DNA from: Oscillospiraceae bacterium
Lineage (GTDB): Bacteria; Bacillota; Clostridia; Oscillospirales; Oscillospiraceae
Length of the DNA stretch: 64,000 bases
Assembly: GCA_017550645.1 (NCBI GenBank)
Contig: JAFZOI010000036.1
Coordinates: 186,001-250,000 of the forward strand
Direction of reading: 5' to 3'
Below, piece after piece: positions 56,686 to 64,000 of this stretch. The number at the start of each line of letters is the position of its first letter. Within the stretch, counting starts at the first letter, position 1. The notes under the pieces are model-generated. The model was given only the letters and a program-made list of their open reading frames with translations. It was not told the DNA's origin and did not search any database. Position numbers and translations under genes: made by a program.

Positions 56686-57378
56686 ATGGCAAAAATAATC
56701 TCTGTTGAAGAAGCCATTGACATGATCCCCGACGGCGCTTCGATAATGATCGGAGGCTTCATGGGCTGTGGCAACCCGCACAAGCTGGTCGACGCTCTGG
56801 CCAAGAGCGGCAAAGGCAACTTCACCCTCTTCTGCAACGACGGCGCAATGCCTGTCGGCCCCTGCGGCGAGGAATACTACGGCGTGGCGAAGCTCATCCA
56901 CAATAAGCAGATCAAGAAGATGTACGCGACCCACGTCGGCCTCAACCCCGAGATCGCCGAGCAGAGCAACTCCGGCGAGCTCGAGCTCATCCTCACCCCT
57001 CAGGGCTCTTACGTCGAGATGATCCGCGCCGGCGGCGCGGGCCTCGGAGCCGTCATCACCCCGACCGGCGTCGGCACCATAGTCGAGGACTATGAGCACG
57101 TCATCGGCCGCATGGAGATCGAGGGCAAGACCTACCTCATCGAGAGACCCTACCGCGCGGACTTCGCGCTCATCGCCGGATACAAGATCGATAAGGCCGG
57201 CAACATCTGGTATAAGGGCACGACGCGCTGCTTCAGCGTCGCGATGGCCACCGCGGCCGACATCGTCATCGCCGAGGCGGACAACCTCGTCGAGATCGGT
57301 GAGATCGAGCCCGAAGACGTCGTCACCCCGGGCGTCTACGTCAAGTACATCGTCGAAGGAGGAATTGAAAATGGATAA
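56686..57378 (+). CDS. CoA-transferase subunit A (acetate/butyrate:acetoacetate type)
   Basis: Family I CoA-transferases move CoA between acyl-CoA and a free acid through a glutamyl-CoA intermediate. The 230-residue alpha subunit has the family pattern I-P-D-G-A-S-I-M-I-G-G-F near residue 14, G-M-or-G-C-G-N-P-H, and P-T-G-V-G-T near 127. The T-Y-L-I-E-R-P-Y-R-A-D-F-A-L segment lies near 150, where subunit A enzymes have their conserved glutamate and Arg. In Clostridia such pairs make butyrate or acetate or degrade acetoacetate; the acid cannot be assigned here. It starts behind a strong AAGGAGG site and overlaps subunit B by eight bases. Confidence 0.92.
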   Translation: MAKIISVEEAIDMIPDGASIMIGGFMGCGNPHKLVDALAKSGKGNFTLFCNDGAMPVGPCGEEYYGVAKLIHNKQIKKMYATHVGLNPEIAEQSNSGELELILTPQGSYVEMIRAGGAGLGAVITPTGVGTIVEDYEHVIGRMEIEGKTYLIERPYRADFALIAGYKIDKAGNIWYKGTTRCFSVAMATAADIVIAEADNLVEIGEIEPEDVVTPGVYVKYIVEGGIENG

Positions 57379-58027
57379 GGAAGAAATAAAGAGCTTTATA
57401 GCCAAGCGCGTCGCCAAGGAGATGCACGACGGAGACGTCGTCAATCTCGGCATAGGCCTCCCCACGCTCATCCCGCAGTTCCTTCCCCCCGATATCCACG
57501 TCATAATCCAGGTCGAGAACGGCGTCATCGGCACGGGTACCGTCACCGATGAGAACATCATCCCGCACCACGCCGTCGACTCCAGCGGCGTCCCCACCGT
57601 CGCCGCTCCGCACGGCTGCTACATCGACTCGAACACCTCCTTCTCCCTCATCCGCGGCGGTCACGTCGACTGCACCGTTCTCGGCTCGCTCGAGGTCGAC
57701 GAGAAGGGCAGCCTCGCCAACTGGATAATCCCCGGCAAGAAGGTGCCCGGCATGGGCGGCGCGATGGACCTCGTCGTCGGCGCGAAGAAGGTCATAGTCG
57801 CCATGGAGCACACCAACAAGGGCAAGCCCAAGATCCTCAAGAAGTGCACCCTTCCCCTCACCGCCGTCGAGGCCGTCGACCTGATCGTCACCGAGATGGG
57901 CGTCATGGAGATCACTCCCGAGGGCATACTCCTCACCGAGTACAACCCCGAGTTCACCCTTGAGCAGATCCAGGCCGCCACCGAGGCTCAGCTCATCATC
58001 AGCCCGAACCTCAAGCCCATGTGCTGA
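57371..58027 (+). CDS. CoA-transferase subunit B
   Basis: The beta subunit supplies the catalytic glutamate. The 218-residue protein shows V-N-L-G-I-G-L-P-T near residue 26 and the active-site block Q-V-E-N-G-V-I-G-T-G near 47 with the Glu in E-N-G. M-G-G-A-M-D-L-V lies near 128, and T-E-M-G-V-M-E-I-T near 178. The ATG at 57371 follows GGAGGAA; a longer upstream frame lies inside subunit A and is a shadow. Together with subunit A it forms one two-gene transcript ended by a strong terminator. Confidence 0.93.
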   Translation: MDKEEIKSFIAKRVAKEMHDGDVVNLGIGLPTLIPQFLPPDIHVIIQVENGVIGTGTVTDENIIPHHAVDSSGVPTVAAPHGCYIDSNTSFSLIRGGHVDCTVLGSLEVDEKGSLANWIIPGKKVPGMGGAMDLVVGAKKVIVAMEHTNKGKPKILKKCTLPLTAVEAVDLIVTEMGVMEITPEGILLTEYNPEFTLEQIQAATEAQLIISPNLKPMC

Positions 58028-58047
58028 AGCTCAAAACAGCATAATAA

Positions 58048-58084
58048 AGCGGACCGCTGAAATTCAGCGGTCCGCTTCTTTTTG
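58048..58084 (+). terminator. Rho-independent terminator after the CoA-transferase genes
   Basis: A perfect 14-bp palindrome (58048-58061 with 58063-58076) is followed by TCTTTTTG. It also serves the convergent glycyl radical enzyme gene, whose stop is at 58089. Confidence 0.88.
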
Positions 58085-58088
58085 TCTT

Positions 58089-60524
58089 TTACATCTGGAG
58101 CTCCGTGCGGCGGATGAGGTCGCGCTGGCCCTCGATATGCAGCTCGACGAAATAGGCCGAAAAGCCCGCGACGCGGACGATGAGGTCCTTGTATTCGTCG
58201 GGGCGCTCCATGGCGGCCTTGAGCGTCTCTGTGCCGATGACGTTTATCTGCATCTCCATGCCGCCCATCGAGAAGTACGTCTTCATAAGCTGCGAAAGCT
58301 TGACGACGCCGTCCTCCCCGTTCATGCAGGAGGGCGAGAACTTCATGTTGAAGAGCGTCCCGTTCGGGTAGTCCGTCTGGACTATGGTCGAGACAGAGTG
58401 CAGTATGGCGGTCGGGCCGGAGGTGTCCATGCCCTGCACGGCGGAGATGCCGTCCGAGAGCGGCTCGCCGCGGCGGCGGCCGTCGGGCGTGGCTATGGTC
58501 ATGCGGCCGAAAATGACGTTGGTCGTGACGGGGTACAGCCCCGCGGAAAAGCGCCCGCGCGGGCCGGTCACGGCGTTGACCTCGTCGGCGAAGACCTTGG
58601 CGGCCCAAGCGGCGTACTTGTCCGCCTCGGGATCGCCGTTGCCGTAGTGCGGAGCCTCGTTGACGATGTAGTCGTGCAGGTCCTCGTAGCCCTCCCAGTT
58701 TTTAAGGAGCGCGTCGAGAAGCTCCGCGCCGGTGCAGCGCTTGGTGTCGTAGACAAGATGCTTTATCATCTGCAGGCTGTCCGCGACGTTGCCTATGGCG
58801 ATGCCCGCGATGCCGGTGGAGTTATATTTCGCGCCGCCGTACATGACGTCCATGCCCTTTTCCATGCAGCCCTCTATCGTGCAGGACGCGAGCGGGAGCG
58901 GCAGGTTCTCGCGGGCTACGTACTCGAAGCAGTTGATGCAGTTGGCGTGCCAGCGCACGAAGAATTTGACCTGCTTTTTATAGGCTTCGAGCACGTCGTC
59001 AAAGGTCTTCATGTCGCCGAGGTAGCCCGTCTCGAGCCCGACGGGGACCTCTGAGGGCGGCTGGCCGTAGCGCCCGGGCATGGGATTGATGCCGTTGTTT
59101 ATCGCGAGGACGAGGGCGTTGGCCATGTTCCAGTAGCTCTCCGTCCCCGTTCCGCCGCAGGCGGGCCACTCGTCGCCGCAGCCGGAGGGCTCGACGCAGC
59201 CGATGAGCGTATAGTTGCGCGCGCTCTCGAGCGAGAGGCCGCGGCTCATCAGCGCGGGGATGATGACGTCGTCGTTTTCGAAGGTCGGGACGCCGCCGGC
59301 GCGCTTGGTCGTCTCGATGGCGGCCTCCCAGAGCTCGGGCGGGGTGTTTTTGTGTATCCTCAGCGCCTGCGGGGGATCGTGCAGGAGCAGGCGGCCGGAG
59401 GCCTGCAGCATCATGAAGGTCACGGCGTTGGAGGCGTCGTTGCCGTCCTTGTCCACGCCGCCCATGGTCATGAGCTGGCCGGAGGTATAGCCGGGGTTGG
59501 ACTGCGTCGCGCCGTAGCTCCAGGGCTTGTTCATCTCGGCGACCTTGAGATAGAGAAGGTCCATGATCTCCTGCGCGTACTCGGGCGTTATGCGCCCGGC
59601 GGCGATATCCGCCTCGTAGTACTCGCCGAGGTACTGGTCGACGCGGCCGAAGCTTATCCCGTGCATGCAGGCGTCGAGGCACATGGCCGTCTGGTACATG
59701 AACATGGTCTGCGCGGCCTCGTAGAACGTCCGGCAGGGCTTCTCGACGCACCACGAAAGCCCGTCGGCCATCATCTCGAGCTCTGCCTTCCGCGCGGGGT
59801 CTTTTTCCGCGGCGGCCTTCTCCGCGGCGAGCGCGGCGTAGCGCTTAGTCAGCGTTATGATGCCCTCGCAGACGATGGAGACGGCTCTGTAGAAGTTGTA
59901 CTGATTGACGCTGGTCCCGTAGATGCCGTTATCCTCGAGGGCCTTCATCTTCGCCAGCGCCTCCTCGCGGATGGCGCCGAAGCCCTTTTTCATGGCGACT
60001 TTATAGCCCGCGCAGAAATGCCCGACGGGGCTCTGCGTATTGTCGGAGGCTCCGAACATGCTGACGCCGTTGCGCGTATGGGGCATGAAGCCGTCCGGCA
60101 TGGCGGCGTCGGTCTTGGCCGACTGGCACTCGTGCTGCCAGAAGCCTATCGTGTCGAGGACGTACTTTCTGTCCTCCTCGGAGATGATGTAGGGGTCTAT
60201 CTCGCGCGTCGAGATGTACCTGCTCTCGATCTCGTCCCTGAGCCAATTGACGCTGTTTTCCGGGTAAAGGGCGGCGGCGCGGTATTTGGCGGACTGCGCG
60301 CCGACGATGACTTCCCCGTCGTCTATGCGCACGGGGATATTCGACAGGATGTGCCGCAGGCATTTGGCCCTGCGGAGTATGCCCGTCTGCTTTGCGTTCT
60401 CGGGGTCGGTATAGTACTCGGTTATGAGCTTATAGCGCGCGATGCATATCTCGGGCTTTGTCTCCCTGTATTTTTTGCGCATCGCCGCCACGCGAACGGA
60501 TATGGGTCTGAGCTGATATGCCAT
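58089..60524 (-). CDS. Glycyl radical enzyme of the glycerol-dehydratase/HypD/CutC superfamily, substrate unknown
   Basis: Glycyl radical enzymes perform radical dehydrations, lyase or decarboxylation reactions under anaerobic conditions after an activase installs a radical on a C-terminal Gly. The 811-residue protein has the active-site thiyl Cys443 and Glu445 in G-C-V-E-P, and the glycyl-radical loop V-R-V-A-G-F-S-A (Gly787). The stretch after the active-site motif, S-G-C-G-D-E-W-P-A-C-G-G-T-G, contains two extra Cys (449, 456) and differs from the HypD and CutC patterns I know. No radical SAM activase gene is present in the window. The gene has an AGGAAGG site and an 811-residue length typical of the family. 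Confidence 0.9.
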   Translation of the reverse strand: MAYQLRPISVRVAAMRKKYRETKPEICIARYKLITEYYTDPENAKQTGILRRAKCLRHILSNIPVRIDDGEVIVGAQSAKYRAAALYPENSVNWLRDEIESRYISTREIDPYIISEEDRKYVLDTIGFWQHECQSAKTDAAMPDGFMPHTRNGVSMFGASDNTQSPVGHFCAGYKVAMKKGFGAIREEALAKMKALEDNGIYGTSVNQYNFYRAVSIVCEGIITLTKRYAALAAEKAAAEKDPARKAELEMMADGLSWCVEKPCRTFYEAAQTMFMYQTAMCLDACMHGISFGRVDQYLGEYYEADIAAGRITPEYAQEIMDLLYLKVAEMNKPWSYGATQSNPGYTSGQLMTMGGVDKDGNDASNAVTFMMLQASGRLLLHDPPQALRIHKNTPPELWEAAIETTKRAGGVPTFENDDVIIPALMSRGLSLESARNYTLIGCVEPSGCGDEWPACGGTGTESYWNMANALVLAINNGINPMPGRYGQPPSEVPVGLETGYLGDMKTFDDVLEAYKKQVKFFVRWHANCINCFEYVARENLPLPLASCTIEGCMEKGMDVMYGGAKYNSTGIAGIAIGNVADSLQMIKHLVYDTKRCTGAELLDALLKNWEGYEDLHDYIVNEAPHYGNGDPEADKYAAWAAKVFADEVNAVTGPRGRFSAGLYPVTTNVIFGRMTIATPDGRRRGEPLSDGISAVQGMDTSGPTAILHSVSTIVQTDYPNGTLFNMKFSPSCMNGEDGVVKLSQLMKTYFSMGGMEMQINVIGTETLKAAMERPDEYKDLIVRVAGFSAYFVELHIEGQRDLIRRTELQM

Positions 60525-63285: not shown

Positions 63286-64000
63286 ATGAAGAAAGTTATC
63301 GCGCTGGTCATCGCCGTGATCATGCTCTTCGCGCTGGTCGCGTGCTCTGCCAAACCCGCCGCAAATCCCACTCCCGACGCCTCGACAGGCATCACCAAGG
63401 ACAACATCAAGATAGGCTGCGTCCATATCTCCGACCCGTCCGATATGGGCTACACCTACAACCACGATCTCGGCACCGAGAACATGAAGAAGGCGCTGGG
63501 GCTGCGTGACGATCAGATCATCAACAAGTACAACACGCCCGAGGGCTCCGAGTGCGAGACCGCTATCCGCGAGCTCGTCGAGGCCGGCTGCAACATCATC
63601 TTCGCGACCAGCTTCGGCTTCGAGGACTACATGGTCACCGTCGCCAAGGAATATCCCAACGTCGAGTTCTGCCACGCTACCGGCTACAAGGCCGCCATTG
63701 AGAACCTTCCCAACTACCACAACTACTTTGTCTCCATCTATGAGGCGCGCTACCTCGCCGGTATCGCCGCCGGCCTCAAGACCGAGACCGACAAGCTCGG
63801 CTACGTCGCCGCGTTCGACTTCGCGGAAGTCATCTCCGGCTACACCGCCTTCTATCTCGGCGCGAAGAGCGTCAACCCCGACGTGACGATGGACGTCATG
63901 TACACCAACTCCTGGAACGACCCGACCGTTGAGTCCCAGGTCGCTCAGGCTCTCATCGACGGCGGCTGCGACGTCATCTCCCAGCACTCCGACTCCACCG
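63286..64000 (+). CDS. BMP-family substrate-binding lipoprotein (nucleoside ABC transporter type), 3' end outside window
   Basis: The frame is open from an ATG at 63286 to the window edge, giving 238 residues of what should be about 350-400. The lipobox L-V-A-C places the lipid Cys at residue 20, followed by a short Pro/Ala/Thr spacer. The mature part matches the BMP/Med/PnrA family: K-I-G-C-V near residue 42, F-E-D-Y-M near 112, and the Y-E-A-R-Y-L-A-G-I-A-A-G-L segment near 152. Family members bind purine nucleosides or similar compounds for ABC importers. The ATPase and permease genes would be expected downstream, beyond the window. A GAAGGGG site lies eight bases upstream. Confidence 0.9.
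   Translation, partial: MKKVIALVIAVIMLFALVACSAKPAANPTPDASTGITKDNIKIGCVHISDPSDMGYTYNHDLGTENMKKALGLRDDQIINKYNTPEGSECETAIRELVEAGCNIIFATSFGFEDYMVTVAKEYPNVEFCHATGYKAAIENLPNYHNYFVSIYEARYLAGIAAGLKTETDKLGYVAAFDFAEVISGYTAFYLGAKSVNPDVTMDVMYTNSWNDPTVESQVAQALIDGGCDVISQHSDST

Follow-up and report, generated by a model that had tools for sequence, protein, structure and literature searches.

Among glycyl radical enzymes (GREs), the described systems closest to the one analyzed here are the B12-independent glycerol dehydratase of C. butyricum (GD; PDB 1r8w) and the B12-independent 1,2-propanediol dehydratases (PD; 5i2a and 9rco). The roles of the GD residues used for mapping below, such as diol binding by His164 and His281, we take to be established. 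Both histidines are kept in PD and in most or all sulfopropanediol dehydratases, the (2S)-3-sulfopropanediol dehydratases being of the HpfG type; the two positions hold Asp and Thr in CutC and His and Asp in HypD. GREs in anoxic habitats perform reactions of which few other enzymes are capable. According to a review, the gut contains many abundant GREs to which no function has been assigned (PMC11574389).

The window, that is, the whole 64-kb stretch of DNA that was analyzed, encodes one such protein on its reverse strand (Table 1). The open reading frame is intact from its ATG start to its TAA stop and is preceded by a strong purine-rich, Shine-Dalgarno-like leader. Its product is a genuine GRE: it matches the PFL-like barrel (593.9 bits, E 5.9e-178) and the Gly_radical domain (107 bits) far beyond chance, and it carries the RVxG(F/Y) motif and the active-site cysteine. 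Cys443-x-Glu445, Gly787, Cys449, Cys456, and the DEWPACGGTG stretch, all listed by the earlier note, were found at those positions in the translated frame.

A bidirectional, terminator-like inverted repeat separates the gene, which forms a single unit, from a convergent CoA-transferase pair. A functional tie of this pair to the GRE is putative, being one of position between convergent neighbors. The other genes around it resemble, by eye, arginine biosynthesis and housekeeping functions. The earlier note had observed that no activase, microcompartment shell, or aldehyde dehydrogenase is near. No activase gene lies anywhere within the 64-kb window, and neither a shell gene nor one for an aldehyde dehydrogenase was noticed in the part of the window surrounding the GRE. 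BMP-type transporter proteins are encoded 3 kb from the GRE (window positions 63286-63999 and L009:1286-9489, the BMP call covering L009:2605-4521), accompanied by ABC components and a xanthine phosphoribosyltransferase, both assigned by eye. A purine or nucleoside substrate, prompted by this cluster, was dropped because these genes appear to form a unit of their own and no recurrence of them was noticed in the neighborhoods of relatives.

Table 1. Positions, within the window, of the GRE gene, its mapped residues, and its neighbors.
Feature	Position	Strand	Basis
GRE, 811 aa, unassigned diol-dehydratase-like clade	58089..60524	-	Pfam PF02901 and PF01228, tree, AlphaFold2 model
His169 (GD His164), predicted diol-binding	60018..60020	-	74/74 in clade
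His288 (GD His281), predicted diol-binding, followed by Gly289 (GD Ser282)	59661..59663	-	74/74 in clade
Active-site loop, residues 443-466, Cys443-x-Glu445 and four extra residues relative to GD (GCGDEWPACGGTG)	59127..59198	-	Residues read; group signature
Gly787, glycyl radical site (RVAGFS)	58164..58166	-	Aligned to GD Gly763
Terminator-like inverted repeat, between GRE and convergent CoA-transferase genes	58046..58082	.	Sequence read directly
Probable CoA-transferase subunit B, convergent neighbor	57371..58027	+	ORF and gene call overlapping subunit A; family by eye
CoA-transferase subunit A, convergent neighbor	56686..57378	+	NCBIfam TIGR02429 over cut-off

The position of the window GRE was explored using maximum-likelihood trees of 52-54 sequences, the bipartitions of which were checked with IQ-TREE. 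GD, PD, 9rco, HpfG-type, CutC, HypD, YbiW, and PflD served as references in the trees, while isethionate lyase, HplG, the N-methyl-hydroxyproline dehydratases, and the (arylacetate) decarboxylases were compared outside them by sequence and fold scores. The window GRE falls in a 96-sequence group (A+B+C) that has 100% UFBoot support in the subset tree and leaves out every tree reference. The core clade that contains it, which omits L063 and L123, is likewise supported at 100%. Against the NCBIfam equivalogs, the protein scores far under every cut-off: 589.8 and 508.9 for HpfG/HpsG (cut-off 1000), 511.1 for CutC (1050), and 512.1 for HypD (1100), with PflD and the decarboxylases also missed; the general subfamily TIGR01774 is narrowly missed (617.9 versus 678.2). 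By phmmer and by fold the nearest enzyme is GD. Isethionate lyase, HplG, the N-methyl-hydroxyproline dehydratases, and the decarboxylases all score below it, and in phmmer GD outscores YbiW, PflD, and HplG by a wide margin. Membership of CutC, HypD, HpfG, or YbiW/PflD was rejected by score, residues, or tree.

The window GRE thus clusters, tightly or otherwise, with no characterized GRE among those tested, and it is a member of a large uncharacterized branch related to the glycerol and propanediol dehydratases. No paper describing this group was found in a literature search. The proposal in the earlier note that this may be a gut GRE of unknown chemistry agrees with the lack of fit to any characterized family tested. 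Its statement that the protein matches no known form holds for tree, NCBIfam cut-offs, and residue pattern, but goes too far in that GD and PD are identifiably nearest and both diol-binding histidines are kept.

An AlphaFold2 model of the protein is confident (mean pLDDT 90.8, pTM 0.91). Its best PDB match is GD 1r8w (Z 49.8, rmsd 1.6 over 781 residues, 37% identity); the two PD structures are also among the top matches, and several CutC entries lie within 1 Z unit. The likeness to GD covers the whole fold, the Cys-x-Glu pair, the glycyl radical site, both histidines, and Tyr640: GD Cys433, Glu435, and Gly763 are kept in the clade, and Tyr640 in 60 of 74 members. The window GRE differs from GD, besides its separate clade, in the four additional residues after GCVEP and in the replacement of Ser282, Tyr339, and Asp447. 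The first two of these are Gly in all 74 clade members, and the third position, located in the altered loop, is Thr or Ser in most of them and Thr in the window GRE. PD shares the fold and the histidines, yet the same pocket replacements set the window GRE apart from it, the GD/PD type having Tyr or Phe at the Tyr339 position, and the tree groups the window GRE with neither GD nor PD. The HpfG type shares the histidines and a Gly at the Tyr339 position, but it keeps Asp447, does not have the loop, and forms a separate clade. YbiW and PflD, which are anhydro-hexitol-phosphate lyases, are also GREs with Cys-x-Glu, but are ~30% identical, have another loop, and stand outside the clade.

The active site therefore looks like that of a diol dehydratase with a roomier pocket than GD. 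This residue pattern suggests diol dehydration without proving it, since YbiW, a C-O lyase, also retains both histidines.

The unusual loop is a signature of the group. Compared with GD, nearly all members have an insertion after GC(V/Q)E, where G-x-G-(D/E)-(W/Y) and additional glycines occur, and this pattern is missing from GD, PD, HpfG, CutC, and HypD in the alignment. The constant part of the loop consists of the glycines, the acid, and Trp453: among 74 core-clade sequences, Gly457 is present in 74, Gly458 and Gly460 in 73 each, Glu or Asp at 452 in 73, and Trp453 in 70. The two loop cysteines are poorly kept across the clade (Cys449 in 47/74, Cys456 in 59/74), which makes a catalytic role for them unlikely, and this candidate role was rejected on that ground. 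GREs with GCVW, which have no acid two residues past the cysteine, adjoin clade GREs at L064:12689-15133 and L061:3804.

Scanning species genomes yielded 55 loci in Oscillospiraceae and other Clostridia, the majority 50-83% identical to the window GRE. Within the family, 49 of 300 genomes carry the clade (E <= 1e-290), as do 5 of 391 genomes drawn from the class (E <= 1e-230). Named isolates that carry it are Sporobacter termitidis (L065, L069) and Alkalibaculum sporogenes (L075), and such cultured relatives with genomes permit a direct search for the substrate. S. termitidis is able both to demethylate methoxylated aromatics and to cleave them (PMC8359953); an aromatic connection is a lead only.

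Most clade members are solitary among housekeeping genes. The linkages observed at the other loci are given as raw locus counts, with no formal background rate. Three high-GC loci (L125, L126, and L129) were left out because their genes could not be called reliably, although their BLAST-found activase frames were kept in the activase tree. An activase gene lies within 6 kb of the clade GRE, often adjacent, in 12 loci. An acylating aldehyde dehydrogenase (ALDH) with Ptb, in some cases also Buk, is found nearby in L029, L060, and L130, and an AFOR-family enzyme in L119 and L071. In L130, the GRE is followed on one strand, in order, by activase, transporter, ALDH, Ptb, Buk, and Fe-ADH. These aldehyde-consuming genes, present in five loci, support an aldehyde product, and the view in the earlier note that context offers no clue to the substrate does not hold once relatives, and a likely activase acting in trans, are considered. 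Other recurring neighbors are OYE-type flavoenzymes (6 loci), UroD-like proteins (7), LysR regulators (9), and SDRs; the flavoenzymes, UroD-like proteins, and SDRs would also fit other chemistry. In L041:5975-13959, the clade GRE is embedded in an operon for a molybdenum hydroxylase, with the large subunit on one side and the Fe-S/FAD subunits on the other. In L124:7106-9546, it is split into two frames (307 and 512 aa) by a frameshift or sequencing error.

Six full-length activases over the TIGR02494 cut-off are encoded in the source genome, four beside a GRE and two not. One of the latter, G000:C22:126568-127470 (= L020:6553-7500), lies on another contig than the window GRE. It groups at 99% UFBoot, with 65-69% identity, with the activases that adjoin core-clade GREs in L027, L042, L059, L069, and L124. 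Because of this observed homology to activases of close GRE relatives, it is likely the best candidate partner of the window GRE. Pairing is imperfectly congruent, given that the activase of L119, whose GRE is a 71% relative, stands outside the cognate activase group. The description of the gene as an orphan in the earlier note is accurate for the window and probably not for the genome. The candidate activase adjoins apparent dcw-type cell-division genes. The second activase away from a GRE (L019:3101-7716, also on G000:C22) lies near an OYE-type flavoenzyme and a thymidylate-synthase-like gene.

From clade position and residue pattern we infer, with about an even chance of being right, that the window GRE is a diol-dehydratase-type eliminase that converts a larger diol to a carbonyl compound and is activated in trans. 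The radical-SAM activase encoded elsewhere, for which the C22 protein is the best candidate, would install the radical on Gly787, from which it would move to Cys443. The resulting thiyl would take a hydrogen from the hydroxyl-bearing carbon of a vicinal diol held by the predicted ligands His169 and His288. With Glu445 acting as the base, the adjacent hydroxyl would depart as water to give an aldehyde or ketone, and the hydrogen would then be given back. The substrate should exceed glycerol in size, since the predicted pocket is wider than in GD and PD (Tyr339 to Gly, Ser282 to Gly, and an altered loop in place of Asp447); taken together, the residue map and the aldehyde-linked operons restrict the substrate search to such diols. 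In relatives, the product would probably pass to an acylating aldehyde dehydrogenase, a phosphotransacylase, and a kinase, or to an AFOR-family oxidoreductase. This aldehyde route is inferred from relatives, and the absence of both acylating aldehyde dehydrogenase and AFOR from the source genome (only 87.5% complete), unlike the relatives, counts against it. A counterpoint to diol dehydration itself is the replacement of Asp447, a substrate residue of GD.

The same roomy pocket would suit a lyase acting on C-O (ether) or C-N bonds, with ring opening or amine release as the outcome, as YbiW and PflD act on anhydro-hexitol phosphates or as hydroxyproline lyase does. This reading is unlikely, though it deserves to be taken seriously: YbiW has both histidines together with Tyr339, PflD has Gly at 339, and a gene set including an FGGY-type kinase and Fe-ADH lies near the clade GRE in L120. 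That set is convergent and outside the GRE operon, however, and YbiW and PflD are excluded from the clade, their phmmer scores and that of HplG being well short of that of GD. That the protein is merely a glycerol or 1,2-propanediol dehydratase that has diverged while keeping its substrate appears improbable. GD and PD are its best sequence and fold matches, and the genes downstream in L130 (acylating ALDH, Ptb, Buk, and ADH) are those expected for propanal use, but the strongly supported separate clade and the replacement of all three GD pocket residues argue otherwise. No microcompartment genes were noticed near the window GRE or among the genes listed for the neighborhoods of relatives, which also speaks against this reading, and a microcompartment association was set aside. 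A decarboxylase, radical addition enzyme, or formate-lyase would share the GRE fold, but those families score far lower and Cys-x-Glu with two histidines fits eliminases, leaving this very improbable. That the gene is a superfluous or degenerating paralogue that no longer serves a function, as an isolated gene lacking an activase in a genome with many paralogues might be, is hardly credible given the intact frame, the full set of catalytic residues, a relative at 83% identity (L022), and the occurrence of the clade across the family.

Gene numbers also bear on activation in trans. The source genome holds 11 PFL-like genes against its six full-length activases, and the same-family genomes G621, G485, G649, G488, and G666 hold 29, 24, 23, 20, and 18 against 7, 5, 8, 8, and 6, respectively, where the real gene numbers may be somewhat lower because some counted GREs are contig-end fragments. 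This imbalance, alike here and in relatives, implies activation in trans, and genomes in which 29 GREs face 7 activases would be good places for studying how one activase serves several GREs. More speculatively, and with a small chance of being correct, the clade could comprise dehydratases whose substrates are bulky diols originating from cyclitols or from the aromatics of plants, in O-demethylating, ring-cleaving clostridia, with tens of paralogues per genome sharing a few trans activases as an undescribed GRE catabolic toolkit.

Among the other GREs of the source genome, that at L014:6664-9075 (G000:C16) has GCVD, so that Asp takes the Glu position of the Cys-x-Glu motif, and is accompanied by an activase of its own. 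MoaF-domain (PF10703/PF17409) or clustered MoaF-like genes lie near others, at L011:9473-11289, L012:5693-7378, and L016:5808-6710.
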